Below are positions 9,362 to 25,908 of a stretch of DNA of 64,000 nt, piece after piece (position 1 is the first letter of the stretch; each line of letters begins with the position of its first letter). This DNA is from Moorella humiferrea (GTDB lineage: Bacteria; Bacillota; DSM-521; Neomoorellales; Neomoorellaceae): contig NZ_CP136419.1 of assembly GCF_039233145.1 (NCBI RefSeq), positions 656,001 through 720,000 on the forward strand, given 5' to 3'. Made by a program: the position numbers and the translations under genes. The notes beneath the pieces are model-generated. The model saw only the letters and a list, made by a program, of their open reading frames with translations, searched no databases and had not been told where the DNA came from.

Positions 9362-9392
9362 AAGAAAACGCCGCCCCAAAGGAGGGAAGTCA

Positions 9393-9770
9393 ATGCGCGC
9401 CAAGGATATAATGACGAAGGACGTGATCACCATTAGCGCCTACGCTCCCATCTACGAGCTGACTAAACTGCTGGCCGAAAACGACATCAGCGGCGTGCCG
9501 GTATGCGATGAGAGCGGCAAAGTAATCGGCATGGTCAGCGAGGCCGATCTCATCGCCCTGAAAAACGGCAGCCGCGTCGTGGACATAATGAATCCCGAAG
9601 TAATAGCCGTAAGCCAGGAAACTCCGGTAGAGGAAGTAGCCGTCGTCCTGCACACGAAAAAGATAAAGCGCGTGCCCGTCTATGAAAAAGACCAAATGGT
9701 GGGCATCATCAGCCGCGCCGACATTGTAGCGGCCATGGCCAGGAAGCATATGGAACGCGTAAAACGATAG
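9393..9770 (+). CDS. CBS-pair domain protein
   Basis: This 125-residue protein consists of two CBS motifs and nothing else. The first begins with the DIMTKDVITISAYAPIYE segment and contains DISGVPV; the second runs from VVDIMNPEVIAV to VGIISRADIVAAM. Such stand-alone pairs bind adenine nucleotides or S-adenosylmethionine and act as regulators. It begins 31 bp after glgP behind a strong AAAGGAGGG site, so it is the last gene of the glucan operon and may sense energy charge. That role is inferred. Confidence 0.9.
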   Translation: MRAKDIMTKDVITISAYAPIYELTKLLAENDISGVPVCDESGKVIGMVSEADLIALKNGSRVVDIMNPEVIAVSQETPVEEVAVVLHTKKIKRVPVYEKDQMVGIISRADIVAAMARKHMERVKR

Positions 9771-9784
9771 GCGTTTTCTTCCAG

Positions 9785-9824
9785 GCGCCCGGCCACGTAA
9801 ACGACGTACCGGGCGCAATTTTGT
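9785..9824 (+). terminator. Rho-independent terminator of the glucan operon
   Basis: A perfect 8-bp stem, GCGCCCGG (9785-9792) with CCGGGCGC (9809-9816), is followed by AATTTTGT. It begins 15 bp after the CBS gene stop. Confidence 0.85.
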
Positions 9825-9947
9825 ATGGGGATATGGTTGTGTATTTTGGTTTGATAAAAGATGGACTTTATGGTACCATTTACATAGCCCCCGGCAACAC
9901 TAGCGCCGGTAACGATTGAGAAGACTGTAATTGGTGGGAACCTGATT

Positions 9948-10361
9948 ATGATCAAAATCCCTACCGACCTCATAGCAAAAACTGTTACCCCGGCTCTGGA
10001 GGCCAGGGAGGAGATAGCCGGGGCTTACCTTTTCGGTTCCGCCTTGGAGTTATGCCGCCCTGATAGTGATATTGATATCGGGTTGGTCATAGACCCTCTT
10101 TACGGACCGCCGGAGGAATACTACGAAAGGATAGCCAATAGTATAGCCAACCGCCTTTCCAGACTTAACGGCCATCCTTTTGATGTTGTGCCTTTAAATA
10201 TAATGAACAGCATTTTTGCTTTCAAGGTAATAAGAAACGGTCGCTTGATTTATAACGTCCGGCCACTGATAGTTAGCGATTTCATAGAAAAAATAAGCCG
10301 CCAGTATGCCGAAAATTACCCACGTTACCGGGAGGCCCTAAAGATAATTGTGGGGGTGTAA
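9948..10361 (+). CDS. MntA-type nucleotidyltransferase antitoxin
   Basis: This 137-residue minimal nucleotidyltransferase has the family signature GS(x)nDxD in YLFGSALELCRPDSDIDIG. In HEPN/MNT toxin-antitoxin pairs, such proteins add AMP to a tyrosine of the HepT ribonuclease toxin and so neutralise it. The HepT gene directly downstream begins 3 bp after this stop but is truncated. The antitoxin itself looks full length and intact. There is no clear signal peptide or membrane segment. Function follows from the family and the neighbour. Confidence 0.85.
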   Translation: MIKIPTDLIAKTVTPALEAREEIAGAYLFGSALELCRPDSDIDIGLVIDPLYGPPEEYYERIANSIANRLSRLNGHPFDVVPLNIMNSIFAFKVIRNGRLIYNVRPLIVSDFIEKISRQYAENYPRYREALKIIVGV

Positions 10362-10364
10362 ATT

Positions 10365-10547
10365 GTGGCTATAGATAAAGAACGGGTTCTGCAGAAAATC
10401 GCCTATATCCGTGAGCAAGTAAGCGCTATCGAAGAGCTGGTAAAAACCTCGAAACGACAAGAGCTTCTAAATGATCCCTGGAAGTTAAGGGGCGTCAAAT
10501 ACGCTTTACAAACAGCTATAATTCGTGCTGAGGGACATAAGGGTTAA
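10365..10547 (+). pseudogene. Truncated HEPN (HepT) toxin
   Basis: Sixty codons from a GTG start match the N-terminal half of a HepT/DUF86 HEPN toxin (KIAYIREQVSAIEEL, then DPWKLRGVKYALQTAI). Normal family members are about 110-140 residues and carry the RxxxxH ribonuclease motif in their C-terminal half, which is missing. The last eight codons are unrelated sequence. The break lies just before the terminator of the leftward duplicated block, so recombination bringing in that block probably removed the toxin's active site. It is probably inactive. Confidence 0.75.
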
Positions 10548-10553
10548 AGACAT

Positions 10554-10585
10554 AAAAAGCCGTCCCCTGCCGTCACAGGGGGCTT
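10554..10585 (-). terminator. Terminator of leftward repeat gene, copy 1
   Basis: On the minus strand, AGCCCCCTG and CAGGGGACGGCT form a stem followed by a run of five T residues. It lies immediately after the stop of the gene at 10573-11217. Confidence 0.7.
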
Positions 10586-11217
10586 GCTTTATTTTCTCGG
10601 CGCAGGATTATAATATCACCCCCGCGGTCAACGAGTCGGGCAGAGATGGTGCCGCCGCCGGGCTCGATCACCAGGCAGTAACCGTCCCTTTCCCGGCAGA
10701 TGGTACCGGCGGCGGTGAGTCTTTCCGCAAGCTCCCGGCGGCGCAGGAGGGCCTGTTCCCCTTCGGCCAGGCGCAGGGCAAGGGTATCCATCTTGAGGAG
10801 GCAGGGCAGGACCTGGTTGCCGGCAAGGAACAAGCGTGTACGGTAACACCCTTCCCGGTATGCCTCAAAACCCCTCACCTTACCCCCGACCACATAGCCC
10901 GTCCCGCCTTCATCCCGGCTGCGGGGGCGGCGCAGGCGCAAAGGTACCAGGACCATTTCCGGTCCCAGGACGACGGGAAAAGCATGACTTCTGCCCTGGG
11001 ACCAGGCGGTCTGCTCCTGACGCCAGGAAACACCGAGGTGCGCTGCCAGGGACTTTAGAACCGTCTTCGTCCGGCGGCGGTCTAAAATTTTTGTCCCATC
11101 GTCCAGCCAGACCTCAGTGTAGTTGCCGCAGTCGTCACCCGTGCCGTAGATGGGTACGAGGCAAATTACTTTTTCCCACAGGCCTTCCTTTAACCAGGAT
11201 ATTATCAAGAATGCCAC
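10573..11217 (-). CDS. Unknown protein family, copy 1 (weak ComK resemblance)
   Basis: This 214-residue soluble protein is the first of three near copies (others at 16613-17257 and 27506-28153). Conserved blocks are YGTGDDCGNYTEVWLDDG, KILDRRRTKTVLK, then a Pro/Val-rich core followed by RRPRSRDEGGTGYVVGGKV and a Leu-rich helix. The order DRR, a beta strand ending in P, then R...G(Y/W)(I/V)..KV is faintly like the ComK competence regulator, but this is only a resemblance by eye. The gene was not recognised otherwise. Copy 1 and copy 2 are almost identical through the middle and differ in the first ~20 codons. It has a strong GGAGGTGGC site. Confidence 0.6.
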   Translation of the reverse strand: MAFLIISWLKEGLWEKVICLVPIYGTGDDCGNYTEVWLDDGTKILDRRRTKTVLKSLAAHLGVSWRQEQTAWSQGRSHAFPVVLGPEMVLVPLRLRRPRSRDEGGTGYVVGGKVRGFEAYREGCYRTRLFLAGNQVLPCLLKMDTLALRLAEGEQALLRRRELAERLTAAGTICRERDGYCLVIEPGGGTISARLVDRGGDIIILRRENKASPL

Positions 11218-11440
11218 CTCCTACCTGGTCTCCATTATATAAAACAAATGTTCGAAGATCAAGGCGGTTTTCAATCACGATTCGCGATAAGAGCTTCACT
11301 CCGGTCCCGCCCTGTTTAAGGTTTGCACCAGGGCCTGGATGGCCGCCGTGAGATCATCGAGTTTTTTCTCGACGCGTACCAGTAAATATATCCATCTGAT
11401 AATTATTTTGGAAAGGCTATAGGATAGATTGACTAAGAAA
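10600..11440. repeat. Long direct repeat, copy 1 (partner 16640-17480)
   Basis: This block aligns with 16640-17480 at a constant offset of 6040 bp, without indels. It covers most of the leftward gene, its upstream region and a YvrJ tail. Two segments differ: the first ~60 bp of the coding region and the extreme 3' end. Downstream (to about 11880) the similarity continues at a lower level. Confidence 0.85.
11296..11390 (-). pseudogene. YvrJ C-terminal remnant, copy 1
   Basis: The minus strand encodes YLLVRVEKKLDDLTAAI and the rest of the C-terminal half of a YvrJ protein, followed by a stop. The first ~19 residues, including the membrane segment present in the intact gene at 28286-28435, are absent. 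It marks the edge of a duplicated block. Confidence 0.75.
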
Positions 11441-11911
11441 ACGAGAGAAATACAAAGGGAAAAACACTACAGACAATTAAATTGTACCTTAACGGTTATA
11501 AAAAACTCCTATGGATAATTTTTTACGGTTTAATATTAAAAACATGCTTTGTTTCCGATTAGAACAAAAGATGATTAGAAACAGACGCTGTTATTTATGG
11601 ATTCCTACTATGAACAGATGCCTATGGATATCCCACTTATACTTTCGCCAGCAAATTAATGGGAAATATTGGATTTGTAAAATACTAAGGGATAGGTATA
11701 TCCATATCTCTTTTATCCTTTTTTTCTGCCCCCCGGCGCGTCGTTGCCGGGCCGTTTTTTATTGCGCTTTCTGGCGGTAGAAAAATAGTGATGGGATGTC
11801 ATTCTATAAAAGGAAAATATAGACTTATGGCGAATAATGACATAAAAAACAGTATAAGGGAAACAGAACCGAAAGGCGTGGAGATTATGTCATGTATTTC
11901 ATCTCCTGAAT
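11391..11911. other. Intergenic region upstream of agr cassette A
   Basis: No convincing gene is seen in this AT-rich stretch of about 520 bp. It is a diverged copy of 17431-17940 and, in its last ~150 bp, of 23100-23280. Reading frames are not conserved between the copies. It contains a terminator hairpin (11728-11760) and ends at the paired boxes of the agr promoter. Confidence 0.6.
11728..11760 (+). terminator. Terminator-like hairpin upstream of agr cassette A
   Basis: A GC-rich arm, CCCCGGC, pairs with GCCGGGC and is followed by six T residues. Related hairpins occur at 17803-17836, 21781-21807 and 23099-23130, always upstream of a cassette. Confidence 0.6.
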
Positions 11912-11946
11912 ACCGCATTATATCCTTCTAAAACCGCATTTTGCCC
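11912..11946 (+). promoter_or_regulatory. Paired LytTR-type boxes upstream of agr operon A
   Basis: Two copies of ACCGCATT begin at 11912 and 11933, exactly 21 bp apart. LytTR regulators such as AgrA bind two 9-bp direct repeats separated by 12 bp, which gives this spacing. The site lies ~50 bp before the first gene of the operon that encodes its presumed regulator, consistent with autoinduction. The same architecture occurs at five other places in the window. Confidence 0.75.
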
Positions 11947-11997
11947 TATTTCGGGAGGAAAGAGAAGCCGGTCCAAGAATATTTTAGGAGGTAAAAA

Positions 11998-12462
11998 ATG
12001 GATAAGATGCCATTAATAAATTTGGCCTTACAGTCATTCCCGGAAAGTATCCTGTTATTGCTTTTTGGCTCAGGCCTATTTAAACGTTGTCCCAGCATTT
12101 ACAGACTACTAATTGGGGCGGCCCTTTCCTCCATAATTTCCTATTTTATCAGGAGATTGCCTTTTCCTTATGGCGTTCATGCCTTGATAGGGGTTGCCGT
12201 TTTAACTCTAATATTTTGGCTAATATTCAATTTGGATTTCAATCAAAGTTTGGTAGCATCGCTGGCAACCCTGGCCACCCTTGGCGCTATTGAAATAATT
12301 TTACTGCCTGTGGAAAGTCATTTGTTGGGCTTAAACCGGTTTAGCGAGGCATGGCCTGATCCCAAACTGCGCCTGCTTATGGCCGTACCGGAATTGATAA
12401 TTCTATCATTAATAACATATTCACTATATAGGGCTAACCGCTGTTTTAAAGGAGATTTGTGA
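11998..12462 (+). CDS. Membrane sensor subunit (N-terminal half of a split AgrC-like receptor)
   Basis: This 154-residue protein is nearly all hydrophobic, with about five membrane segments (around residues 5-25, 38-52, 60-78, 84-104 and 125-145). It has no kinase domain. It is followed without spacing by a histidine kinase with two more membrane segments, so together they would reproduce the six- to seven-helix sensor of AgrC. The preceding TAGGAGG site supports the ATG. A second ribosome site, AAAGGAG, lies just before the kinase ATG, arguing for two separate proteins rather than a recent frameshift. Peptide binding is inferred. The gene is absent from cassette C. Confidence 0.65.
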   Translation: MDKMPLINLALQSFPESILLLLFGSGLFKRCPSIYRLLIGAALSSIISYFIRRLPFPYGVHALIGVAVLTLIFWLIFNLDFNQSLVASLATLATLGAIEIILLPVESHLLGLNRFSEAWPDPKLRLLMAVPELIILSLITYSLYRANRCFKGDL

Positions 12463-13305
12463 ATGGCTACCGCAAATCATAGTTACTGGTTAATCGCGGC
12501 CTTGCTAGGTCAGTCCTTTCTAATAAACATTGCTGTCCAGAACCTGCAGCTTTCCCAATATGCCTTCTATAAACCGATAGTCATAGGAGCGAACCTTGTT
12601 AGCCTGTCATTTTATCTTATGATTCTCTTATTGATTAAAAAAATATTGGAACTAAGGCGGCAACAGCAACTCCTGGAGCAAAAAGAAACGGAGCTGGACA
12701 GCGTTCAGAGCCTCCTGCGCACCGTACGCGCCCAAAGGCACGATATCATTAACCATCTTGATACTGTCTATGCCCTGCTTTCCTTGGGAAAAGAAGTCCT
12801 GGCCCGGGAGTACGCCTCGCATTTAGTGCAAATTGCTGGCAATACCAGCCACCTGATATGGTTGGAGCAACCCGTGATTGCCGCCTTCTTACAAAATAAA
12901 CTCAATCAGGCTATAGCCAAGGAAATAACTATGTATATTGACGTAAGTACGGATTTAAAGGATTTGGCTGTAAAGCCGTATGCTCTTGTTACCATACTGG
13001 GGAACCTCCTGGAAAACGCCATGGAGGCGGTAGAGACCTTACCGCCCGGGCAACGCCAGATAGAATTGGAAATATCCAGGGCCAACCTGTATTATCTATT
13101 TACCGTCAGCAATTCCGGCCCTCCCTTAGACTCCGCAATTAAAGATGTTATCTTCCAGCCGGGCGTCTCTACCAAAGGGCCCGACCGGGGTCTGGGCCTG
13201 GCTACGGTAAAGGAAGTGGTCGAGAATCACGGGGGGACAATTGAAGTCGAGGCTGATCCGGTTACTTTCCGAATTAAGTTTCCTGCAACAATTCAGCAAG
13301 GATGA
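12463..13305 (+). CDS. AgrC-like sensor histidine kinase
   Basis: This 280-residue kinase has two N-terminal membrane helices (about 8-28 and 40-60), a coiled linker (62-90), a phospho-acceptor site in QRHDIINHLD (His93) of the SpoOB/AgrC type, and a HATPase domain. The nucleotide-binding boxes are NLLENAMEAVE and DRGLGLATVKEVVENHGG. It should phosphorylate the LytTR regulator encoded 10 bp downstream in response to the AgrD-derived peptide. The gene is missing from cassette C, where a clean 1335-bp deletion removes it. Confidence 0.9.
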   Translation: MATANHSYWLIAALLGQSFLINIAVQNLQLSQYAFYKPIVIGANLVSLSFYLMILLLIKKILELRRQQQLLEQKETELDSVQSLLRTVRAQRHDIINHLDTVYALLSLGKEVLAREYASHLVQIAGNTSHLIWLEQPVIAAFLQNKLNQAIAKEITMYIDVSTDLKDLAVKPYALVTILGNLLENAMEAVETLPPGQRQIELEISRANLYYLFTVSNSGPPLDSAIKDVIFQPGVSTKGPDRGLGLATVKEVVENHGGTIEVEADPVTFRIKFPATIQQG

Positions 13306-13315
13306 GGTGAATTAT

Positions 13316-14047
13316 ATGCTAACAGCTATAATTGCCGATGATAACGTGGCGGAAAGAACTTATTTTTGCGGATTACTCCGAGAAACGCAAAAAGTAAAGG
13401 TAGTAGGCGAAGCCGCTGATGGCCTGGCAGCCCTGGATTTAGCCTCCCATCTGCGGCCGGACATTGCCTTTTTAGATATCCAAATGCCCGGGCCGAATGG
13501 TCTTGAAGTAGCCAGGGAAATTATGACAACCGTTCCCCTGACTTTAATCGTCTTTTTTACGGCTCATTCTGGGTATGCCGCCAATGCCTTTGAAATAAAC
13601 AGCGTCGATTATCTTCTCAAACCCTTTGACGCCTTCCGCGTAAGGAAGGCCCTGGCTAGAATTGAAGAAAAGTTGGCCCTCAGGCAAGTTAATAAAAGAA
13701 GTCAAAAGTTAAACAAACTGGCTTTAAAAAGCAGGGGAGAAATGATCCTTATCGACCTCAACGAAATAGTGTTTATCGAAAAGAGCGGCAAGAACACAAC
13801 AATAGTTCATACTGTCAAAAGGGACTTTACCACGAGTCAAACCATTGGAGAACTGGAGCAGCAACTGGAGGGAAATGACTGCTTTCAGAGGGTTCATAAA
13901 TCATACCTGATAAATTTAAATATGGTGGAAAGGATCAGCCCTTTTGCCGATAACTCCTTTGTGGTCAGGTTTGCCGGATACAAAAAGGATGCCCTCATTA
14001 GCAGGAACAATATTGAATTGGTCAAAAAGCATCTTAATCTTGCTTAG
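13316..14047 (+). CDS. AgrA-like LytTR response regulator, copy A
   Basis: This 243-residue regulator has a receiver domain with the phospho-acceptor Asp54 in IAFLDIQMPGPNGLEVA and the acidic pair Asp8/Asp9. A LytTR DNA-binding domain (about 140-243) contains IVFIEKSGKNTTIVHT and FQRVHKSYLINLN. It is predicted to bind the 21-bp-spaced box pairs in this region. The ATG at 13316 is chosen because GGATGAGGTG lies seven bases upstream. A longer frame starting at 13241 would overlap the kinase. The protein encoded at 23350 is identical. Confidence 0.92.
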   Translation: MLTAIIADDNVAERTYFCGLLRETQKVKVVGEAADGLAALDLASHLRPDIAFLDIQMPGPNGLEVAREIMTTVPLTLIVFFTAHSGYAANAFEINSVDYLLKPFDAFRVRKALARIEEKLALRQVNKRSQKLNKLALKSRGEMILIDLNEIVFIEKSGKNTTIVHTVKRDFTTSQTIGELEQQLEGNDCFQRVHKSYLINLNMVERISPFADNSFVVRFAGYKKDALISRNNIELVKKHLNLA

Positions 14048-14074
14048 AATTTATTCCAGCAAAGGACTGATTGA

Positions 14075-14707
14075 ATGCTTCATAACCTATCGCTGCGCCT
14101 GGCAAAGTCTTTGGCCTTTAACGGCGGCCTTGATCCCTCCCGGATACCTGTTATTACTTATGGACTGGAAATAATCCTGGGAATTGTAGTTAAAACATTT
14201 TGTTTTTTAGCCATTCCCTCTGTACTGGGCGTTTTGCCCCAAACCCTGGCAGCCTTCACGGCTTCAGCCCTTTTCCGCCTCCCGGCCGGGGGCGCCCATT
14301 GTACGGGCTTCGCTCGTTGTTTATTTGGAAGCATTGTTGCTTTTACAGCAATTGGGATCCTTGCCAGGTTTATCGGGGGGTTGGGCGATTGGACATTGAC
14401 ACTATTTTATATTGTCCTCGGCCTGGCCATCCTGTTAACTCTATCCCAGGTTCCCGTAGATAATCCCTCCAGACCGGTTAAAAAACCGGAAGAAAGGTCA
14501 CATATGCAGAAATGGGCTTTAGGAGTTTTGTTTTCGTACGTTTTGATGGTAAACGTCTTGCCACTTACGAACGACTTGATTTTCGCGGCTTCCTTAGGGT
14601 TATTGCTGCAGCTATTCACGCTACTGCCGGCAGGTTATAAGTTGATGCACCATTACGACATGTTGTTAGTAAAAGTTACCAGCTTTATTACTAAAGGGGG
14701 GAGGTGA
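14075..14707 (+). CDS. agrB: AgrB-type peptide-processing membrane protease, copy A
   Basis: This 210-residue integral membrane cysteine protease cleaves the AgrD C-terminal tail and forms the cyclic intermediate. The catalytic pair is visible in GGAHCTGFARC: His75 and Cys82, seven residues apart as in staphylococcal AgrB. Several hydrophobic segments follow. It sits 27 bp after the regulator and five bases before agrD. Compared with copy C, differences are concentrated in residues ~90-180. Confidence 0.93.
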   Translation: MLHNLSLRLAKSLAFNGGLDPSRIPVITYGLEIILGIVVKTFCFLAIPSVLGVLPQTLAAFTASALFRLPAGGAHCTGFARCLFGSIVAFTAIGILARFIGGLGDWTLTLFYIVLGLAILLTLSQVPVDNPSRPVKKPEERSHMQKWALGVLFSYVLMVNVLPLTNDLIFAASLGLLLQLFTLLPAGYKLMHHYDMLLVKVTSFITKGGR

Positions 14708-14712
14708 TCCGG

Positions 14713-14838
14713 ATGAAGAGGCGCTTTTTATTTGCCCTGGTGGCTAACTTAGCGGTATTTGTCGCCCTGTTGGGTGTCCGGCCGACCAGCTGGCTGGCCT
14801 GGTACCAACCGGAAGCTCCTAGAGAATTTTTGAAGTAA
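14713..14838 (+). CDS. agrD: AgrD-type cyclic lactone autoinducer precursor, copy A
   Basis: This 41-residue precursor is too short for most gene callers. It has a basic, amphipathic N-terminal helix (MKRRFLFALVANLAVF), a core VRPTSWLAWY and a charged C-terminal tail QPEAPREFLK, the standard AgrD layout. There is no cysteine. Ser26 is the only plausible ring nucleophile, so the signal would be a lactone rather than a thiolactone. A GGGGGGAGGTGA ribosome site precedes the ATG. It lies directly after agrB, as expected. The exact ring and N-terminal trimming cannot be read from sequence. Confidence 0.88.
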   Translation: MKRRFLFALVANLAVFVALLGVRPTSWLAWYQPEAPREFLK

Positions 14839-14843
14839 ATTAC

Positions 14844-14878
14844 TAAAGGGGCCAGGAATAAAACCTGAGTCCCTTTAA
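14844..14878 (+). terminator. Attenuator/terminator-like hairpin after agrD A
   Basis: TAAAGGG...CAGG pairs with CCTG...CCCTTTA. There is no long T-run, so it may be a weak terminator. The same hairpin follows agrD in cassette C at 24878-24912. Confidence 0.4.
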
Positions 14879-14925
14879 AATTAGTCAAATACATTTACCG
14901 GCACCCCTGATTTCGTCTGGCAAAA

Positions 14926-14997
14926 ACCGCATTATATCCACCAAAAACCGCATTGTATCCCAGAAAAAGATCGGATTGGGTATAATGGTGATAAAAT
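14926..14997 (+). promoter_or_regulatory. LytTR-type promoter of cargo A
   Basis: Boxes ACCGCATT begin at 14926 and 14947, 21 bp apart. Downstream are TATAAT at 14981-14986 and TAAAAT at 14992-14997. The second hexamer is the one kept in all four cargo-type promoters. There is no consensus -35, as expected for an activator-dependent promoter. A Shine-Dalgarno AAGGAGG at 15013 is followed by a five-codon open frame, then the cargo gene at 15167. Confidence 0.72.
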
Positions 14998-15166
14998 GGA
15001 AGCAAGAAATGAAAAGGAGGGGTAATTTCATGGAGTATGTTACATAGACTGATGCATAAGTGCAAAACAGACAAGTGATATATATGGTAGTTAATCGAAA
15101 GTAAGTCTTTGTTTGGGGTAAATAATGAAAATGGACTTTTTAAAGAAAAAATCAGGAGGGATTTTT

Positions 15167-15691
15167 ATGAAAAATTGTTTAAAAAAAGGGCTACCCATAT
15201 TTTTGGTTATTATTCTTATAATGATGCTTTTTAGTAATTTAGCATTTGCAGCATATAAAACAAGTGAAGATCAAAAAACCACAATTATTATAAATAGCGA
15301 CAAAGTACCATACACGGTTACAATAACTAACGGGGCACGTGAAGAATGGACCCAATATGATCGGTTTGATAATAGAATATACTATCATATAAGTGATGGT
15401 TTTGTTGTAGCGGGATTAAGTTTTCCTTTTGATATTTATGCGGATACTTCCACTTATATAAAATCTAATGGAGTTACCATGGGTACCATAGCAATGTATG
15501 AATGGGAACCACGTGATGTTTTAAAACCTCGTTGGGATTATCTATATTATGGTGGTGAAGTTTATAAAGATTTCTTTTTACCGATTGAAGGTTCTGTAAT
15601 AGATGCAAGTGTATTTTATGGCTTTCAGGCTTTTGACGACGCTGGTTTACTGGGCGGCTGTCAGGACTATAACAATTTTAATTTATGGTAA
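15167..15691 (+). CDS. Secreted protein of unknown function (agr cargo A1)
   Basis: This is a 174-residue predicted exported protein. It has a classic signal peptide: basic KNCLKKG, a hydrophobic core and a cleavage site at LAFA|AY near residue 28. The mature part is beta-rich and aromatic, without cysteine except one near the C-terminus, and no family was recognised. The start at 15167 follows CAGGAGGGATTT; an in-frame ATG at 15125 lacks a good site. It is AT-rich compared with the neighbouring agr genes. Placement behind the LytTR-type promoter suggests quorum control. A bacteriocin, toxin or matrix role is possible but not shown. Confidence 0.75.
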   Translation: MKNCLKKGLPIFLVIILIMMLFSNLAFAAYKTSEDQKTTIIINSDKVPYTVTITNGAREEWTQYDRFDNRIYYHISDGFVVAGLSFPFDIYADTSTYIKSNGVTMGTIAMYEWEPRDVLKPRWDYLYYGGEVYKDFFLPIEGSVIDASVFYGFQAFDDAGLLGGCQDYNNFNLW

Positions 15692-15722
15692 TATAATATA
15701 AAATATATGGGGGGTTCTAACT

Positions 15723-16436
15723 ATGAAACTTGGAAAGTGGATTGCTTTGTTGGCATTAGTTTTAATATCAACATTTTCTATTATGACTACAATACATGCA
15801 GAAGAAGATGCTAAAATAAAAAGGGCTGAAGATATGGCTTTAGCTGATAAGGACGTAGAAAAAGCAGACAAAGTAGTAGCGTACGTAAATAATATCCCTA
15901 TTACATCCGGAGAATATTTATCTTGTTATGCAAGTGCTCAATATAGTAACACTTTATTGCAGCAAGACGCTAATAAATTGGGGCCTCAAGGTAAGAAGAT
16001 AGCAGAAAACGCAAGTAAATTATTTGCTAAATATCCACCTGAAACCAGAGCTTTAGCCCAAGTATTGGCAGATACCGCTATATATAGCGAAGCAATAAAA
16101 AAAGGTTTATTGAAAAGCGATCAAGAGGTAACAGAATATATACAATCTGTACGGAAAATGGAGGATTCATCTCCTGAATTAAAAAAAATTGTTCAAGTAC
16201 TTGGTGAGGAACGTTATTGGAATGATTTATTGCCCAGATTAGTAAAAAAGAATTTGACTATAGGGGCCCTAAAAACTCAAATTATATTTGAGCAAAAAGA
16301 TTGGACGCAATATAAATACGAGTTGGTAAAAAATGCTGAATTAAAAATTGTTGACACCAACTTAATAACCTCATCAAAAGAAGAGGTTTTGAAATACCTG
16401 CAAGAGAAGGAAGAAATATTTAATAGTCTTTTTTAG
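15723..16436 (+). CDS. Secreted SurA-N-like protein (agr cargo A2)
   Basis: This 237-residue exported protein has a signal peptide ending near TIHA|EE (residue 26). The segment VVAYVNNIPITSGEY is the hallmark start of the SurA/PrsA N-terminal chaperone domain, followed by helices. No parvulin (PPIC) domain is present, so it is a chaperone-like module without isomerase. It follows cargo A1 by 31 bp behind GGGGGGTTCT. A related protein (25171-25908) accompanies a different secreted protein in cassette C, suggesting that it helps fold or hold its partner. That role is inferred. Confidence 0.75.
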   Translation: MKLGKWIALLALVLISTFSIMTTIHAEEDAKIKRAEDMALADKDVEKADKVVAYVNNIPITSGEYLSCYASAQYSNTLLQQDANKLGPQGKKIAENASKLFAKYPPETRALAQVLADTAIYSEAIKKGLLKSDQEVTEYIQSVRKMEDSSPELKKIVQVLGEERYWNDLLPRLVKKNLTIGALKTQIIFEQKDWTQYKYELVKNAELKIVDTNLITSSKEEVLKYLQEKEEIFNSLF

Positions 16437-16513
16437 ATACAAGGTCGATAAGGGATAACTGGCTTAACATATAAGGATCTGAGACAAAGATAAGTAAGGA
16501 TGACCAAACCTCC

Positions 16514-16640
16514 ACTTTCAGGAACACCAGAGATGCGGCAGGATTTTCTAGCAGCCGTTTAAAGTCTGGATAGCAAGAACAAGGAAAAATAAACAGAAAA
16601 CAGCCCCTGGAATCACAGGGAGCTCGAACTAACTTCCCGA
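16514..16640. repeat. Direct repeat (partner 27408-27533)
   Basis: About 127 bp beginning CACTTTCAGGAACACC and ending at the 3' end of the leftward repeat gene are practically identical at both places. The segment includes the terminator of that gene. Confidence 0.85.
16594..16625 (-). terminator. Terminator of leftward repeat gene, copy 2
   Basis: On the minus strand AGCTCCCTG and CAGGGGCT form a stem followed by GTTTTCTGTTT. An identical structure ends copy 3 at 27487-27518. Confidence 0.6.
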
Positions 16641-17257
16641 CGCAGGATTATAATATCGCCACCGCGGTCGATGAGCCGGGCAGGGACGGTTTTGCCACCG
16701 GGCTCGATCACCAGGCAGTAACCGTCCCTTTCCCGGCAGATGGTACCGGCGGCGGTGAGTCTTTCCGCAAGCTCCCGGCGGCGCAGGAGGGCCTGTTCCC
16801 CTTCGGCCAGGCGCAGGGCCAGGGTATCCATCTTGAGGAGGCAGGGCAGGACCTGGTTGCCAGCAAGGAACAAGCGTGTACGGTAACACCCTTCCCGGTA
16901 TGCCTCAAAACCCCTTACCTTACCCCCGACCACATAGCCCGTCCCGCCTTCATCCCGGCTGCGGGGGCGGCGCAGGCGCAAAGGTACCAGGACCATTTCC
17001 GGTCCCAGGACGACGGGAAAAGCATGACTTCTGCCCTGGGACCAGGCGGTCTGCTCCTGACGCCAGGAAACACCGAGGTGCGCTGCCAGGGACTTTAGAA
17101 CCGTCTTCGTCCGGCGGCGGTCTAAAATTTTTGTCCCATCGTCCAGCCAGACCTCAGTGTAGTTGCCGCAGTCGTCACCCGTGCCGTAGACCGGCACCAA
17201 GCAGTTGAGCCTCTGCCACAAGCCCTCTTTAATCCAGTTGATTGCCAATAATGCCAC
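16613..17257 (-). CDS. Unknown protein family, copy 2 (weak ComK resemblance)
   Basis: This 214-residue paralogue is a mosaic. Its central ~170 residues are identical or nearly so to copy 1. Its C-terminal ~25 residues (ending LRREVSSSSL) match copy 3 instead. Its N-terminal ~20 residues are intermediate (NWIKEGLWQRLNCLVPVYGTG). This pattern fits gene conversion between copies. No function was recognised. It precedes the degraded cassette B, just as copy 1 precedes cassette A. Confidence 0.6.
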   Translation of the reverse strand: MALLAINWIKEGLWQRLNCLVPVYGTGDDCGNYTEVWLDDGTKILDRRRTKTVLKSLAAHLGVSWRQEQTAWSQGRSHAFPVVLGPEMVLVPLRLRRPRSRDEGGTGYVVGGKVRGFEAYREGCYRTRLFLAGNQVLPCLLKMDTLALRLAEGEQALLRRRELAERLTAAGTICRERDGYCLVIEPGGKTVPARLIDRGGDIIILRREVSSSSL

Positions 17258-17480
17258 CTCCTACCTGGTCTCCATTATATAAAACAAATGTTCGAAGATC
17301 AAGGCGGTTTTCAATCACGATTCGCGATAAGGACCTCACTCCGGTCCCGCCCTGTTTAAGGTTTGCACCAGGGCCTGGATGGCCGCCGTGAGATCATCGA
17401 GTTTTTTCTCGACGCGGACCAGTAAATATATCCTTCTGATATTATTTTGGAAAGGCTACAGGGTAGATTGATTAAGAAAA
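16640..17480. repeat. Long direct repeat, copy 2 (partner 10600-11440)
   Basis: Same block as 10600-11440, offset 6040 bp, without indels. Confidence 0.85.
17336..17430 (-). pseudogene. YvrJ C-terminal remnant, copy 2
   Basis: This is the same 3' fragment as at 11296-11390, truncated at the same point. The shared breakpoint shows that truncation came before the duplication. Confidence 0.75.
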
Positions 17481-17941
17481 CGAGAGGAATACAAAGGAAA
17501 AAATACTGCAGACATTTTATTTGTATCTTAACGATTATATGAACTCCTGTAGCTAATTTTTATGGTTTGATATGACAAACATGCTCGGTTTCCGGTTGAA
17601 ACAAAGAGATGATCAGAACCAGGCATCGTTATTCTAGGATACCTATCACGAACAAATGACTATGGATATCCCACTTATACTTTTGACAGCAACTTGAGGG
17701 GATATATTGGGTTCATGTGAACTCTAACAGTAGAAAAATTCATATTGAGATGGTAAATCCTAAGGGATAGGTCTAACCATATCCCTTTTAGCTTTTTTTC
17801 TACCGCCCGGCGCGTTGTTGCCAGGCGGTTTTTTATTACCTTCCTGGCGATATGAACTAGCTGCGGAATCCCTATCTATGACAGGGAAATTTAGGTTTAT
17901 GGCGAATAATGACATAAAAAACAGTATAGGGAAAACCGGTC
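17431..17941. other. Intergenic region upstream of cassette B
   Basis: A diverged copy of 11391-11880. No conserved frame is seen. It contains the terminator at 17803-17836. From 17800 to 17940 it is nearly identical to 23097-23240, then breaks into IS3-type sequence. Confidence 0.6.
17803..17836 (+). terminator. Terminator hairpin upstream of cassette B
   Basis: CCGCCCGGC pairs, with one mismatch, with GCCAGGCGG and is followed by six T residues. Confidence 0.65.
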
Positions 17942-18427
17942 AGAACGCGCTTTTTATTGACTACATAGCCTATATCCCTTTGTAGTATATGCAGGTGCGG
18001 TTGGTCTAAAAGTTCCGCCTGCCTCTTTACTGAGATTTCGGGGTGATGACGCTCCACCATTTCACGTCTTTTGACGGCGCTCGTTGAGTTCGGCAGATTT
18101 TTTTCAACCAATTGACCTCTATGGTCAACTGGCCTATTTGCTTGATCAGTTCCTCCTTCTCGGCTTCATACTGCTTTCTCATCTTTTCCAGTTCGCTGGC
18201 GCCGCGGGTGAAAAGGGAAGGGAGGTTCTCTATGGCCTCAGCCTTCCATCGGTGTAGTTGGGCGGGGTGGACTTCGTATTGAGCAGCGATCTCGGCTACT
18301 GTCTTCTCCCCACGGAGCATTTCCAACACGATGTTTGCATAAAGTTATAATTTTATTCACTTTTCCATGTTACCATTATAGCTTAATTTTTACTTTTTGT
18401 GTCTTAACCTATGGGTCCATTATAGGC
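17942..18427 (-). mobile_element. Degraded IS3-family element
   Basis: The minus strand from 18329 encodes an IS3 OrfA start (GEKTVAEIAAQYEVHPAQLH, a helix-turn-helix) and a leucine-rich coiled region. It then shifts frame near 18100 into an OrfB-like piece (EKNLPNSTSAVKRREMVERH) that is internally deleted and ends near 17950. No catalytic DDE part remains. The right boundary falls inside an agrD copy, so this element, now dead, broke cassette B. Confidence 0.75.
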
Positions 18428-18479
18428 GTCCGACCGACCAGTTGGCTGGCCTGGTACCAGCCAGAAGCTCCACGAGAAA
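18425..18479 (+). pseudogene. agrD relic of cassette B
   Basis: In frame, this encodes GVRPTSWLAWYQPEAPRE, the same core and tail start as the two intact precursors. The leader half was lost to the IS3 insertion. A ~95-bp deletion relative to cassette A removes the normal stop and fuses the frame into the promoter. It proves that a third agr locus once existed here. Confidence 0.85.
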
Positions 18480-18493
18480 TTTCGTCTTGCAAA

Positions 18494-18566
18494 ACCGCAT
18501 TTTATCCCAATATTTCCTCATTATATCCCACAAATGGATCCGATTAGGAAAAGTGGTGGTAAAATA
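18494..18566 (+). promoter_or_regulatory. LytTR-type promoter of cargo B, cut off by an IS
   Basis: Boxes at 18494 (ACCGCATT) and 18515 (TCCTCATT) are 21 bp apart. The second has two changes. TAAAAT at 18560-18565 matches the conserved -10; the first TATAAT of the other promoters is mutated here. A Shine-Dalgarno AGGGAGGGGG follows at 18581. The IS4-family element starts 56 bp past the -10, separating the promoter from the cargo gene. Confidence 0.65.
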
Positions 18567-18621
18567 GAGGTAGCAAGAATAGGGAGGGGGAGATACCGTT
18601 GGATTAATTTAGAAGAATTAT

Positions 18622-20197
18622 CACTAGCGTTGCATAAAAATTTTTAGCACAGTGCAAGGCAATATATGGAAGGCAGAATATGTTATATAATAACATTAAT
18701 GGTGTATACAACCATGCATTTTCTTCCTTCACTGGCCAAAGGACTTAGGTTATCAGGGGTAGTCCTTATCCACATATTGCCATATAAAGTTGCTTAAAGA
18801 ACTAAGGGGTCATAAGTTACGTCGTTTAAATAATCAGCTTCGCCAGCTAAAACTTGCTTTACTAAATCCTGATAGATGCCTTCATAGTCTATCTTGTGCC
18901 GCCCATAAGACCTTCGTTTGGGTTTACGGTGCAGGCTTTGGACGAAGAAGGTAAAGGGCTCATATAGACAGGTGCGGATTAAACGTTTAATAGTGAGAAA
19001 TGGTCCTTGATAGCCGGCCTTTAATTGCAGCATAACCATCAGGCAGTAGGTTATTAGCGCTATGAAGAGCTGGTTTTCTACAGCCTGTTCGCTTTTACCA
19101 TAAAAATGTTTCACCTGCAGGTGTTGTTTCATCCATTTGAAGAAGAGTTCTATCTGCCAGCGCTTACGATAAATCTCGCTTAATTCTTCCGCCGGTAACT
19201 CGAAATCATTGGTGACTATAATTACCGGTTGCCCTTGGGTATCTTCGGTTGTTATCAGCCGTAAAGGGTGCTTCATTTTGGTAACTCCATCTTTGCCAAG
19301 GTAAACAAGCTGTTCCTTTTTAACCTTGCTGTCAGGGTTTACCGGCAACTCGGCGATTATTTCTACCAGAGCATTACCCTTTAAGCGGCTGGCAAAGCGG
19401 ACGCCTTCTTCACAGTATCTGTCAAACTTCTTGTAATCGACATAGCCGCGGTCAAAGACGTTTAAGGCTTCTTCTTCCTCTACTACGAGGGTATCCATCT
19501 GGGTTTTATCTGCCTTCCGGGCCGGGGTGACAATTGCTTTATCAGGTAGAACCTCTTCTTCACAGAACTTTAAGCGCAGGTGGAGTTTTATCCCGCTTTT
19601 AGTCCTGCGAAACTCGGCCCAGAGGTACTGGGTAAAACAGAGACTAATGATAGTGGAATCGATGAGGTAAATACGTCCTGCGGTATTTCTTAAGTTTTCA
19701 AAGCCGATTTCCCGGCCTATCCGGGTGGTGAGATGGCTGAATAATAGCCGGATGAATTGCGGCGATAAATCCCTTAAACGGCGCGCTATCTGGGAGAAAC
19801 TGATACTCTCTAAATTGATAACCCGGCTAAATTGCGGGTCATTGAAGCTATTGCTGATATCCCGCAAGCCATTAAGTTGTTCCAGCTGAGCGAAGGCTAT
19901 TAGTTTAATGAGTTGAAGGGAATTTAGCTTCTTAGCGTACTTATCGACCCCCATACCGGCGGTTAACTGCCAAAAATAGTCGTTAGAAACTGGAGCAAAC
20001 AGTTGATGAAATGTGGATAATGTGGTATCCTTACCTTGCATTTGGGCCTCCTTATGTTAGAGGTTGGGGCAAGGACTACCCTCAATCTCTAGTATAAGGA
20101 GTTTTTTCTTGCAAGGCTAGGTTATTTCAGGAATTTGGCTGTTTTTTGGGCGTTATTTCCCTTGACAAGTTTATTTTTTCTTTATGCAACGCTAGTG
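18622..20197 (-). mobile_element. Intact IS4-family insertion sequence
   Basis: The element of 1576 bp is bounded by perfect 17-bp inverted repeats, CACTAGCGTTGCATAAA at the left and its complement at the right. A perfect 9-bp target duplication AAGAATTAT lies outside each end (18613-18621 and 20198-20206). It carries a single full-length transposase gene. The intact ends and duplication indicate recent insertion. Confidence 0.93.
18794..20041 (-). CDS. IS4-family transposase
   Basis: This 415-residue DDE transposase has catalytic residues Asp128 (YLIDST), Asp197 (VFDRGYVDY) and Glu298 in YRKRWQIELFFKWMK. The last fits the IS4 signature Y-(2)-R-(3)-E-(6)-K exactly. The N-terminal domain is of the DUF4372 type. 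It is the only gene in the element and appears complete, so the element could still be active. Confidence 0.95.
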   Translation of the reverse strand: MQGKDTTLSTFHQLFAPVSNDYFWQLTAGMGVDKYAKKLNSLQLIKLIAFAQLEQLNGLRDISNSFNDPQFSRVINLESISFSQIARRLRDLSPQFIRLLFSHLTTRIGREIGFENLRNTAGRIYLIDSTIISLCFTQYLWAEFRRTKSGIKLHLRLKFCEEEVLPDKAIVTPARKADKTQMDTLVVEEEEALNVFDRGYVDYKKFDRYCEEGVRFASRLKGNALVEIIAELPVNPDSKVKKEQLVYLGKDGVTKMKHPLRLITTEDTQGQPVIIVTNDFELPAEELSEIYRKRWQIELFFKWMKQHLQVKHFYGKSEQAVENQLFIALITYCLMVMLQLKAGYQGPFLTIKRLIRTCLYEPFTFFVQSLHRKPKRRSYGRHKIDYEGIYQDLVKQVLAGEADYLNDVTYDPLVL

Positions 20198-20346
20198 AAG
20201 AATTATATAAAATGTAACCCCGGTGAAGGCAGAAAGTGGATGAACTAACAGCAAAAATGGTAAAAAAGCAAAAGGAGGGGGACAATGGATCGATGAAGTA
20301 GTTCTGATTGTGCATTATATGATAACCATAAAAACGTTCAGGAAGC
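20198..20346 (+). other. Leader of cargo B with abortive start
   Basis: After the target duplication there is an AAAGGAGGGGG ribosome site (20270-20280), followed by ATG and only two more codons before TGA. The real frame of the next gene is entered further downstream. The original start or signal peptide was probably lost. Confidence 0.45.
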
Positions 20347-21051: not shown

Positions 21052-21072
21052 TTTAACCTAACGGGTGTCTAT

Positions 21073-21279
21073 ATGCTAATGCCTCCAGAGGCACCATGGT
21101 ATGCCGGTTTCTACAACTCCTTCCTTTTGCTAATTCCTATAGTGATTATAATTGTTTTTGGGATCTTATTAACGACGATTATTGTTTTATTGCTTAGATT
21201 GAAGAAAATGCAAGAAGAAATAACCATAAAATTGGACAGAATATCTAAAGAGGTTACGAACAGGATTAAGGAGAAATAA
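21073..21279 (+). CDS. Small single-span membrane protein
   Basis: This 68-residue protein has one long hydrophobic segment (about residues 14-43) and a basic, charged C-terminal tail rich in Lys and Glu. It follows cargo B by 21 bp and may be its immunity or accessory partner. Only the position suggests this. No family was recognised and the ribosome site (AACGGGTG) is weak. Confidence 0.5.
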   Translation: MLMPPEAPWYAGFYNSFLLLIPIVIIIVFGILLTTIIVLLLRLKKMQEEITIKLDRISKEVTNRIKEK

Positions 21280-21318
21280 CCCCTCACACTTAAAAGCAGT
21301 AAACCGACTGAACAACTT

Positions 21319-21450
21319 ATGAATCGGGAAAAAATAGAGGGCGCTGTGCGTCTAGCTGACGAACAGCGCCTTGTAAAGGGAAAATTTTGTACTAAAGTGC
21401 GATTTCGTGAAAATTTAGCGGAGGGACTTTATGTGGTCTCTCCATTATAA
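21319..21450 (+). CDS. Possible 43-residue small protein
   Basis: An ATG frame encodes a charged peptide (MNREKIEGAVRLADEQRL at its start). A clear AAGGAGG follows its stop but leads to no start codon. It overlaps, in antisense, the putative leftward transcript, and its start overlaps that transcript's terminator. Coding status is doubtful. It may be a remnant of a lost gene. Confidence 0.25.
   Translation: MNREKIEGAVRLADEQRLVKGKFCTKVRFRENLAEGLYVVSPL
21328..21370 (-). terminator. Leftward terminator of the putative regulatory RNA
   Basis: On the minus strand GGCGCTGT (complement of 21363-21370) and ACAGCGCC (complement of 21340-21347) form a perfect 8-bp stem, followed by CTCTATTTTTT. Confidence 0.7.
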
Positions 21451-21583: not shown

Positions 21584-21589
21584 AATTCC

Positions 21590-21661
21590 ATTATACCACC
21601 ATTATTCCCAATTCGATTCTTCCGTGGGATATAATGTAGGTTTCGGCAGATAAAATGCGGC
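21590..21661 (-). promoter_or_regulatory. Leftward LytTR-type promoter
   Basis: Read on the minus strand, CCGCATT and CTACATT boxes lie exactly 21 bp apart (plus-strand positions 21654-21660 and 21633-21639). AATAAT and TATAAT hexamers follow at the same distances as in the cargo promoters. TATAAT occupies 21590-21595. It points away from the adjoining cassette genes. Confidence 0.65.
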
Positions 21662-21807: not shown

Positions 21808-21808
21808 T

Positions 21809-22955: not shown

Positions 22956-23280
22956 TGAACTCCCCCTAACCCGGGGTTAGGGTAGTATCCTGCATAGCAG
23001 CCTGGAGGAGGGTATATGTTCTGATAGCCTGATGGCTGCTCCGGAAAAGCATTTCAAGCATAAGTTAAATGTTAGTTAAAACACGTTCTTTATTGCTACC
23101 GCCCGGCGCGTTGTTGCCAGGCGGTTTTTTATTACCTTCCTGGCGATATAGAACTAGCTGCGGAATGCCTATCTATGACAGGAAAATTTAGGTTTATGGC
23201 GAATAATGACATTAAATACAGTATAGGGAAAACCGATCCGAAAGGGTGGGATACAAAGCCATGCATTTCATCCGCCGAAT
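22956..23280. other. Intergenic region upstream of cassette C
   Basis: It contains the palindrome CCCTAACCCGGGGTTAGGG near 22965, the repeated pre-cassette block and a terminator (23099-23130). From 23097 to 23240 it is nearly identical to 17800-17940. No gene is seen. Confidence 0.6.
23099..23130 (+). terminator. Terminator hairpin upstream of cassette C
   Basis: CCGCCCGGC pairs with GCCAGGCGG (one mismatch) and is followed by six T residues. Confidence 0.65.
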
Positions 23281-23315
23281 ACCGCATTATATCCTTCTAA
23301 AACCGCATTTTGCCC
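23281..23315 (+). promoter_or_regulatory. Paired LytTR-type boxes upstream of agr operon C
   Basis: ACCGCATT at 23281 and again at 23302, 21 bp apart, is a near-exact copy of the cassette A operator. The regulator gene begins ~40 bp downstream because the sensor genes are deleted. Confidence 0.75.
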
Positions 23316-23349: not shown

Positions 23350-24081
23350 ATGCTAACAGCTATAATTGCCGATGATAACGTGGCGGAAAGAACTTATTTT
23401 TGCGGATTACTCCGAGAAACGCAAAAAGTAAAGGTAGTAGGCGAAGCCGCTGATGGCCTGGCAGCCCTGGATTTAGCCTCCCATCTGCGGCCGGACATTG
23501 CCTTTTTAGATATCCAAATGCCCGGGCCGAATGGTCTTGAAGTAGCCAGGGAAATTATGACAACCGTTCCCCTGACTTTAATCGTCTTTTTTACGGCTCA
23601 TTCTGGGTATGCCGCCAATGCCTTTGAAATAAACAGCGTCGATTATCTTCTCAAACCCTTTGACGCCTTCCGCGTAAGGAAGGCCCTGGCTAGAATTGAA
23701 GAAAAGTTGGCCCTCAGGCAAGTTAATAAAAGAAGTCAAAAGTTAAACAAACTGGCTTTAAAAAGCAGGGGAGAAATGATCCTTATCGACCTCAACGAAA
23801 TAGTGTTTATCGAAAAGAGCGGCAAGAACACAACAATAGTTCATACTGTCAAAAGGGACTTTACCACGAGTCAAACCATTGGAGAACTGGAGCAGCAACT
23901 GGAGGGAAATGACTGCTTTCAGAGGGTTCATAAATCATACCTGATAAATTTAAATATGGTGGAAAGGATCAGCCCTTTTGCCGATAACTCCTTTGTGGTC
24001 AGGTTTGCCGGATACAAAAAGGATGCCCTCATTAGCAGGAACAATATTGAATTGGTCAAAAAGCATCTTAATCTTGCTTAG
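23350..24081 (+). CDS. AgrA-like LytTR response regulator, copy C
   Basis: The 243-residue product is identical to that at 13316-14047, with the same receiver Asp54 and LytTR domain. Here the deletion joins the operon leader directly to a GTG at 23341 and the ATG at 23350. The nearest Shine-Dalgarno, GGGAGG at 23322, lies 13 bases from the GTG and 22 from the ATG, so expression may be reduced. There is no adjacent sensor; the kinase of cassette A could serve both. Confidence 0.88.
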   Translation: MLTAIIADDNVAERTYFCGLLRETQKVKVVGEAADGLAALDLASHLRPDIAFLDIQMPGPNGLEVAREIMTTVPLTLIVFFTAHSGYAANAFEINSVDYLLKPFDAFRVRKALARIEEKLALRQVNKRSQKLNKLALKSRGEMILIDLNEIVFIEKSGKNTTIVHTVKRDFTTSQTIGELEQQLEGNDCFQRVHKSYLINLNMVERISPFADNSFVVRFAGYKKDALISRNNIELVKKHLNLA

Positions 24082-24108: not shown

Positions 24109-24741
24109 ATGCTTCATAACCTATCGCTGCGCCTGGCAAAGTCTTTGGCCTTTAACGGCGGCCTTGATCCCTCCCGGATACCTGTTATTACTTATGGACT
24201 GGAAATAATCCTGGGAATTGTAGTTAAAACATTTTGTTTTTTAGCCATTCCCTCTGTACTGGGCGTTTTGCCCCAAACCCTGGCAGCCTTCACGGCTTCA
24301 GCCCTTTTCCGCCTCCCGGCCGGGGGCGCCCATTGTACGGGCTTCGCTCGTTGTTTATTTGGAAGCATTGTTGCTTTTACAGGGATTGGGATCCTTGCCA
24401 GTTTTATCGGAGGATTGAGCAACTGGACATTGACACTATTTTATATTGTCCTCGGCCTGGCCATCCTGTTAACCCTATCCCGGGTTCCCGTAGATAATCC
24501 CTCCAGACCGGTTAAAAAACCGGAAGAAAGGGTACGCATGCAGAAATGGGCTTTAGGAATTCTGTTTACCTATTTTATGTTGGTAAACATACTGCCTCTT
24601 ACGAGCGATTTAATTTTCGCGGCTTCCTTAGGGTTATTGCTGCAGCTATTCACGCTACTGCCGGCAGGTTATAAGTTGATGCACCATTACGACATGTTGT
24701 TAATAAAAGTTACCAGCTCTATTACTAAAGGGGGGAGGTGA
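24109..24741 (+). CDS. agrB: AgrB-type peptide-processing membrane protease, copy C
   Basis: This 210-residue protein has the same catalytic pair (His75, Cys82 in GGAHCTGFARC). Compared with copy A, about 20 substitutions lie in residues ~90-180, such as FIGGLSNW for FIGGLGDW and FTYFMLVNILPLTSD for FSYVLMVNVLPLTND. The first 90 residues are identical. The protein looks functional. Confidence 0.92.
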   Translation: MLHNLSLRLAKSLAFNGGLDPSRIPVITYGLEIILGIVVKTFCFLAIPSVLGVLPQTLAAFTASALFRLPAGGAHCTGFARCLFGSIVAFTGIGILASFIGGLSNWTLTLFYIVLGLAILLTLSRVPVDNPSRPVKKPEERVRMQKWALGILFTYFMLVNILPLTSDLIFAASLGLLLQLFTLLPAGYKLMHHYDMLLIKVTSSITKGGR

Positions 24742-24746
24742 TCCGG

Positions 24747-24872
24747 ATGAAGAGGCGCTTTTTATTTGCCCTGGTAGCTAACTTAGCGGTATTTGTCGCC
24801 CTGTTGGGGGTCCGGCCGACCAGCTGGCTGGCGTGGTACCAACCGGAAGTTCCTAGAGAATTTTTGAAGTAA
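24747..24872 (+). CDS. agrD: AgrD-type cyclic lactone autoinducer precursor, copy C
   Basis: This 41-residue precursor is identical to copy A except Val for Ala at position 35 in the tail (QPEVPREFLK). The predicted signal region VRPTSWLAWY, with Ser26, is unchanged, so both cassettes should make the same peptide. The ribosome site is GGGGGGAGGTGA. Confidence 0.88.
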   Translation: MKRRFLFALVANLAVFVALLGVRPTSWLAWYQPEVPREFLK

Positions 24873-24959: not shown

Positions 24960-25031
24960 ACCGCATTATATCCGCCAAAAACCGCATTGTATCCCAGAAA
25001 AAGATCGGATTGGGTATAATGGTAATAAAAT
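24960..25031 (+). promoter_or_regulatory. LytTR-type promoter of cargo C
   Basis: ACCGCATT boxes start at 24960 and 24981. TATAAT lies at 25015-25020 and TAAAAT at 25026-25031. A Shine-Dalgarno AAGGAG at 25047 is followed by a TTG frame of seven codons, after which the sequence has no similarity to cassette A. Confidence 0.72.
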
Positions 25032-25170: not shown

Positions 25171-25908
25171 ATGTTTAAGAAGAAGACGGGTGTATTATTA
25201 ACAGTGTTATCAATAGTTTTGATTGGGATATTTAGCATAAATGCTATTAACAGTGTAACCTATGCCCAGGGACAAAAAACAATAGAGGAATTTTTTCAAC
25301 CTATAGGTGAATTTATCCAAAGCAACCCTGATTTACTTAGAGATTTAAATAAAACCTTAGAGACGGCAGAAGTATCTCCTGATGAAACTGTTGCATGGGT
25401 AAATGAGCTACCTATTACAATAGGAGAATTAGAATTCAGAAGAGGCTTAAATCAAAAAGCTAATAAACGTTACCAAAGCTATACAGAAGTATTTAATGTT
25501 TTAGTTGAGGAAAAAATAGTTTTCGATTATGCCATTAAAAACAAGCTATTACCGACTGAAGATGAGGTAAAAAGGTTTATTGCTGAGGAACAAAATCAAT
25601 ATGCCACGAATGACGAGTATAAAACGTTAGTAGACAATTTGTGTAAAGCCGCCAACATGTCTCTTGAGGATTACTGGAACACTTATGAATGGTATAATGC
25701 CTTTCGATTATTAACCTTCAGCAAGTCCTTTGCGAATGCAACCAAGGACATAGTTTTTGAGGCAGCAAAGCAACATGAAGAAGAAAAAGCTAAAAAGGAA
25801 CTGTGGCTTAATATGAAAACCAAATTAAAATATGAGGCTAAAGTGAAAATAAATGAGAAATTTAAAGAGTTCAACTTTGTATTGGACAAATCAAAGTTAT
25901 ATTTATAA
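25171..25908 (+). CDS. Secreted SurA-N-like protein (agr cargo C1)
   Basis: This 245-residue exported protein has a signal peptide (core VLLTVLSIVLIGIFSI, cleavage near TYAQ|GQ). VAWVNELPITIGELEFRRG is the typical opening of a SurA/PrsA N-terminal domain and the rest is helical with a lysine-rich tail. There is no parvulin domain. It shares the domain type but little identity with cargo A2. Here it comes first in the operon, and the partner secreted gene second, the reverse of cassette A. The ribosome site is GGGGGG. Confidence 0.75.
   Translation: MFKKKTGVLLTVLSIVLIGIFSINAINSVTYAQGQKTIEEFFQPIGEFIQSNPDLLRDLNKTLETAEVSPDETVAWVNELPITIGELEFRRGLNQKANKRYQSYTEVFNVLVEEKIVFDYAIKNKLLPTEDEVKRFIAEEQNQYATNDEYKTLVDNLCKAANMSLEDYWNTYEWYNAFRLLTFSKSFANATKDIVFEAAKQHEEEKAKKELWLNMKTKLKYEAKVKINEKFKEFNFVLDKSKLYL

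Follow-up and report, generated by a model that had tools for sequence, protein, structure and literature searches.

A predicted serine-closed agr-type signal in Moorella humiferrea and the frequency of serine ring residues among related AgrD precursors

Results

Inspection of a 64,000-nt segment of Moorella humiferrea DNA (contig NZ_CP136419.1; hereafter the window; genome size 2.67 Mb) revealed what is very probably an agr-type quorum-sensing locus. Its signal is predicted to be a lactone, SWLAW, closed by a serine; it would act through a split AgrC and a LytTR-type AgrA that recognizes direct repeats, leading to autoinduction and to control of neighbouring genes. Our search of the open-access literature found no agr work on Moorella, a genus of heat-loving acetogens used for gas fermentation.

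Organization of the agr copies

The window contains two agr copies (Table 1). In copy A the order is sensor ORF, kinase, AgrA-type regulator with a LytTR domain, AgrB and AgrD, and copy B is comprised of AgrA, AgrB and AgrD only, with no agrC or kinase gene. Over the 1,535 bp compared (13306-14840 and 23340-24874) the copies share 97.7% identity, and their first 1,043 bp are 100% identical. The 35 mismatches that follow are mostly clustered at 14349-14578, inside agrB, which suggests mosaic exchange. Around the copies, an ORF of 214-215 aa occurs three times together with its flanks (10573-11217, 16613-17257 and 27506-28153, all on the minus strand; 76-92% identity over sampled segments); these repeats may mark duplicated units.

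Table 1. Features of the agr region, in window coordinates
Feature	Position	Strand	Description
LytTR-type box pair upstream of operon A	11912..11946	+	weaker third box 21 bp upstream
agrC, sensor half	11998..12462	+	154-aa five-helix membrane domain, separate ORF; AlphaFold pLDDT 92, five long helices
agrC, kinase half	12463..13305	+	GHKL ATPase, SPOB_a
agrA, copy A	13316..14047	+	Response_reg 5.2e-20, LytTR 2.8e-19
agrB, copy A	14075..14707	+	membrane cysteine peptidase/cyclase; Pfam PF04647 E 6.4e-30; His75, Cys82; AlphaFold pLDDT 90.6
agrD, copy A	14713..14838	+	41 aa; predicted ring Ser26-Trp30 (codons 14788-14802), predicted tail from Tyr31
Perfect LytTR-type box pair	14926..14960	+	about 90 bp past agrD A, before secreted-protein genes
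Putative target, 188 aa	15125..15691	+	N-terminal hydrophobic segment; behind box pair 14926; no Pfam family above cut-off
Putative target, 237 aa, SurA_N-like	15723..16436	+	PF13624 E 9.6e-5, below cut-off
agrD relic GVRPTSWLAWYQPEAPREI, leaderless	about 18425..18482	+	86% identity over 58 nt
LytTR-type box pair behind relic agrD	18494..18528	+	
LytTR-type box pair	21627..21661	-	
Three LytTR-type boxes, 21-bp steps	23260..23315	+	upstream of agrA B
agrA, copy B	23350..24081	+	first 300 nt 100% identical to copy A
agrB, copy B	24109..24741	+	102.7 bits; His75, Cys82
agrD, copy B	24747..24872	+	one tail substitution, same ring
Perfect LytTR-type box pair	24960..24994	+	about 90 bp past agrD B
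Putative target, 245 aa, SurA_N-like	25171..25908	+	behind copy B boxes; PF13624 E 0.015, weak
Putative target, 186 aa	25926..26486	+	N-terminal hydrophobic segment

Each agrB gene adjoins an agrD gene and encodes a catalytic His and Cys seven residues apart. The normal His75/Cys82 pair had already been recognized in an earlier, sequence-only reading of this DNA; it is present in both copies and, together with Gly73, is invariant in an alignment of 141 AgrB sequences, 135 of which also have Arg68. His75, Cys82, Gly73 and Arg68 correspond to H77, C84, G75 and R70 of S. aureus AgrB, which are needed for proteolysis (PMC10196373), and this correspondence makes it plausible that AgrD is processed by the usual acyl-enzyme route. 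Sequence and fold searches of the PDB with AgrB yielded no match, as did a contig scan with a single AgrB as the query and a plasmid search.

Judging from homology, the membrane ORF at the head of operon A is the sensor half of AgrC, since in 16 relatives the sensor domain and kinase are fused in one ORF of 422-477 aa, and the kinase half hits PDB entry 6e52, the S. aureus AgrC kinase structure, at 8e-7, and also 4bxi. For the sensor domain, a fold search found no counterpart in the PDB. The AgrC membrane sensor kinase is encoded by two ORFs, which lie in the same frame with a TGA immediately ahead of the ATG. Recoding of this stop codon need not be invoked: the junctions differ among other relatives, where gaps or 4-nt overlaps are found, which makes a split receptor likelier than readthrough. 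Split AgrC also occurs at loci L035, L054, L046, L048, L073 and others.

Putative AgrA binding sites and target genes

Genome-wide, six pairs of direct repeats of the form ACCGCATTx, 12 bp, ACCGCATTx (21-bp period) were counted, every one of them inside the window, against zero matches for the reversed control pattern. Box pairs recur at corresponding positions in a further four Moorella genomes, so that tandem direct repeats, which we regard as putative AgrA sites, lie upstream of the operon in five genomes. Their geometry is that published for LytTR sites (9-mer, 12 bp, 9-mer; PMC6193735), and we infer that AgrA binds them. Through these boxes AgrA would bring about autoinduction as well as control of the neighbouring secreted-protein genes, a variable cargo. 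Different loci have different genes behind the boxes; their products are predicted to be secreted, and some of them weakly resemble SurA_N. The variable cassettes extend over 14926-16436, 18494-21279 and 24960-26486 in the window, 4364-5897 in L035 and 388-3578 (minus strand) in L054. In the cassette of the relic agrD, a DDE transposase gene of the DUF4372 type (18794-20041, minus strand) separates the box pair at 18494 from a 234-aa ORF at 20347. RNAIII, the effector of staphylococcal agr, had no Rfam match in region 9000-29000; clostridial agr systems reportedly lack it too (PMC12312760).

AgrD precursors

Both AgrD copies are 41 aa long, contain no Cys and have Ser as residue 26. The copy A precursor is MKRRFLFALVANLAVFVALLGVRPTSWLAWYQPEAPREFLK (translation of 14713-14838), from which copy B (translation of 24747-24872) differs by a single A-to-V substitution in the tail. 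A strong ribosome-binding site, GGGGGGAGGTGATCCGG, precedes the ATG at 14713, which confirms the residue numbering of the sequence-only reading. The window has three occurrences of DNA encoding the motif GVRPTSWLAWYQPE and shuffled sequences have none; the third occurrence (18428-18451) is a fragment with neither leader nor start. Translation and motif search therefore bear out the statement that two intact precursors and a relic share this Cys-free motif. Membership of the AgrD family is indicated by a match to NCBIfam TIGR04223 (quorum_AgrD; 35.1 bits, cut-off 19) and by a layout comprising a hydrophobic/amphipathic leader, a nucleophile position 7 residues before the Pro of xQPExP, and a charged C-terminal tail. 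With Ser at the ring position and no Cys, the precursor has the sequence features of the lactone (Ser) AIP subgroup.

Ser26 aligns with the ring Cys of GVKPTCNFFFYQPEVP, encoded by a paralogue in the same genome (L001); a second paralogue in this genome, GALPTSLLAWHQPEVP, has serine. We surveyed 141 AgrB-AgrD pairs from the genus, family and phylum without fixing which residue stands at the ring position. Counted over the 138 distinct precursors linked to an AgrB, this residue is C in 67, S in 64, T in 4 and K in 1; in the remaining two the ring residue seems to lie one position off, and L122 and L150 align only when the spacing is moved by one residue. These proportions are approximate, because the sampling, ranked by AgrB score, was uneven and 18 AgrBs had no recognized AgrD. 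The counts outside the family are similar (C 55, S 45, T 3), which indicates that the abundance of Ser does not result from oversampling of Moorella relatives. An AgrB-alignment search of named genomes brought up further Ser precursors, among them one in Brevibacillus (class Bacilli) and another in Acetivibrio. Altogether, C, S or T occupies the residue 7 before the conserved Pro in 135/138 precursors, compared with 9-20/138 elsewhere in the ring, where positions 2-4 vary strongly and position 5 almost as much. Such a pattern would be expected of a ring in which the nucleophile alone is fixed.

The sequence-only reading had taken Ser26 as a replacement of the ring cysteine, and the homology of this position to the Cys of paralogues and relatives argues for that assignment. 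Its interpretation thus holds as regards the ring position and the AgrB catalytic pair, and has to be revised as regards the end of the ring (see below) and the supposed rarity of serine rings. As judged from the alignments, serine rings are in this phylum a lineage trait about as common as cysteine rings, and the type found in the window is kept in five genomes of the genus, where VRPTSWLAWYQPE is unchanged in seven copies despite synonymous changes. Given the positional homology of Ser26 and the normal catalytic pair of AgrB, the best reading is most likely a Ser-closed lactone formed by standard AgrB chemistry. Thr25 was rejected as a general nucleophile, as Ser types may have A, T, Y, N, V or M directly before the Ser. 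Thermostability is not a sufficient cause of the serine, since Cys and Ser precursors coexist in one genome.

Four loci (L040, L015, L138 and L153; AgrD ...AATG...YQPEVP) have Thr at the ring position and stand beside Ser precursors (L045, L143) that closely resemble them; the products of these four loci are possibly threonine lactones. The single Lys occurs within the Ser clade, in the L135 precursor ANISATKVFILYEPDTP, and may reflect either a lactam, a ring shifted to the preceding Thr, or decay.

In the AgrB tree, 41 of the 43 members of the clade containing the window proteins have Ser partners, and the whole tree requires a minimum of 13 changes among S, C and T. Two AgrB positions follow the ring residue closely: position 36 is Gly in 47/67 Ser types versus 4/69 Cys types, and position 79 is aromatic in 53/67 versus 3/69, with Pro in 50/69 Cys types. 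Co-evolution of these positions with the ring residue is inseparable from shared ancestry, as most of the four well-supported independent contrasts show no difference at either position. A kinase gene is present at 51/61 Ser loci versus 17/62 Cys loci; its correlation with the ring residue is likewise inseparable from shared ancestry, there being too few independent switches on the tree. Cys-ring loci often have an AgrC-type sensor ORF right before agrB and no kinase nearby (42 of the 62 Cys loci with flanks, e.g. L072, 4937-5431).

Discussion

According to the mechanism that we propose, AgrB would cut AgrD between Trp30 and Tyr31 and retain the peptide as an acyl-enzyme, whose bond would be attacked by the Ser26 hydroxyl to give the five-residue ring S-W-L-A-W. 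Another protease would then remove the leader, leaving a tail ending in ...RPT. The exported lactone would be sensed by the split AgrC, comprised of the five-helix sensor and kinase proteins, which would phosphorylate AgrA; on its repeats, AgrA would raise expression of the agr operon and of the neighbouring genes for predicted secreted proteins. The two agrD copies agree in the ring that they encode, so one and the same signal from both should reach the single AgrC of that type. Genes, motifs, homology, nucleophile conservation and boxes were observed, and they form the basis on which the cleavage site, lactone chemistry, sensing, DNA binding and regulon are predicted.

Serine rings have been published for S. 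pseudintermedius, for E. faecalis (GBAP) and, as a listed AIP, for C. difficile Agr2 (PMC12312760, Table 1). The agr system of S. pseudintermedius/intermedius, whose AIP is the lactone RIPT[STGFF] (PMC3673130, PMC12312760), resembles that of the window in carrying Ser where a Cys ring would have its Cys, in a ring of five residues (the size predicted for the window), in Pro-Thr before the Ser and in the AgrB-AgrD-AgrC-AgrA logic. It differs in its ring residues and gene order (BDCA, in contrast to sensor-kinase-AgrA-AgrB-AgrD), and the window has AgrC split into two ORFs and no RNAIII match in Rfam. Clostridioides difficile agr2, with the AIP listed as NSA[SSWVA] (PMC12312760, Table 1), shares the Ser at the ring position, the five-residue ring and an AgrC and AgrA of its own, although sequence and gene order differ. 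In the fsr system of Enterococcus faecalis, GBAP is a Ser-closed lactone made via the AgrB homologue FsrB, with FsrC/FsrA (PMC12312760, PMC3673130); Ser at the ring position and an AgrB-type enzyme are common to both systems, but GBAP has a nine-residue ring and fsrD lies inside fsrB, and the window lactone is a predicted one. The Cys type of Moorella itself (L001) has a paralogous precursor and AgrB, with Cys at the position of Ser26; unlike the window locus, it has a Cys ring and an adjoining five-helix sensor ORF only, with no kinase.

The size of the ring depends on the cleavage site. The conserved Y/H-Q/E-P sequence starts 5 residues after the nucleophile, with Y/H directly after the ring in 136/138 precursors and Q/E-P following. 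We take the Y/H/D position to be the first discarded residue in the Listeria and C. perfringens precursors as well. In S. aureus AgrD1, AgrB cuts between M32 and D33, giving a five-residue ring from C28 to M32 (PMC10196373); the L. monocytogenes AIP is CFMFV (PMC4916163), and that of C. perfringens is listed as [CLWFT] (PMC12312760). By homology to these precursors of determined processing, AgrB of the window should cut between Trp30 and Tyr31, which yields the five-residue ring SWLAW and makes Tyr31 the start of the discarded tail. The sequence-only reading had let the ring end at Tyr31, which by the same homology appears to be off by one residue. The six-residue ring SWLAWY that this implies has a precedent in the six-residue ring reported for C. 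acetobutylicum (PMC4916163, PMC12312760), but we consider it improbable, because a post-ring Y/H that hardly varies is likelier to be a recognition residue than part of a variable signal, and the equivalent position is the first to be discarded in S. aureus.

A linear signal would arise if AgrB, given a precursor without cysteine, only cleaved it, or if the lactone hydrolysed at once, AgrC then sensing a linear peptide. The ring is here a prediction from sequence, and oxoester formation is a possibility, rather than a certainty, for the AgrB of the window. A linear signal is nevertheless very unlikely: it would give no reason for the occupancy of the ring position by Ser, Thr and Cys only, and Ser lactones have been reported for staphylococci of the S. 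intermedius group and for E. faecalis, whose AgrB enzymes are of the same type (PMC3673130, PMC12312760). Still less credible is the view that the window holds decaying duplicates in which Ser reflects degenerative loss of Cys. Decay would fit the relic copy, the nearby transposase genes and the lack of AgrC in copy B, but comparison between genomes contradicts it: the Ser type is retained under synonymous change in five Moorella genomes, the AgrB clade is dominated by Ser partners, and both regulators and boxes are conserved.

While Ser-closed AIPs as such are already known, their commonness in the phylum and the threonine branch may be new. A broader proposal, to which we give even odds, is that hydroxyl-closed AIPs (with Ser or, in a branch exemplified by AAATGPWS followed by YQPEVP, with Thr) are a major and anciently established agr chemistry of the phylum, concentrated in loci with their own kinase, Cys rings dominating loci with only a stand-alone AgrC-type sensor domain. 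If this is true, threonine-lactone signals exist; none was found in the literature searched.

Of the agr signals in Moorella and many of its relatives, about one half appear to be esters and not thioesters, which changes the choice of synthetic peptides for studies of signalling in thermophilic acetogens. With Ser and Cys systems side by side in the same cell, it can be asked what sets ring chemistry, and the conserved boxes mark out a few genes for predicted secreted proteins as a testable regulon.
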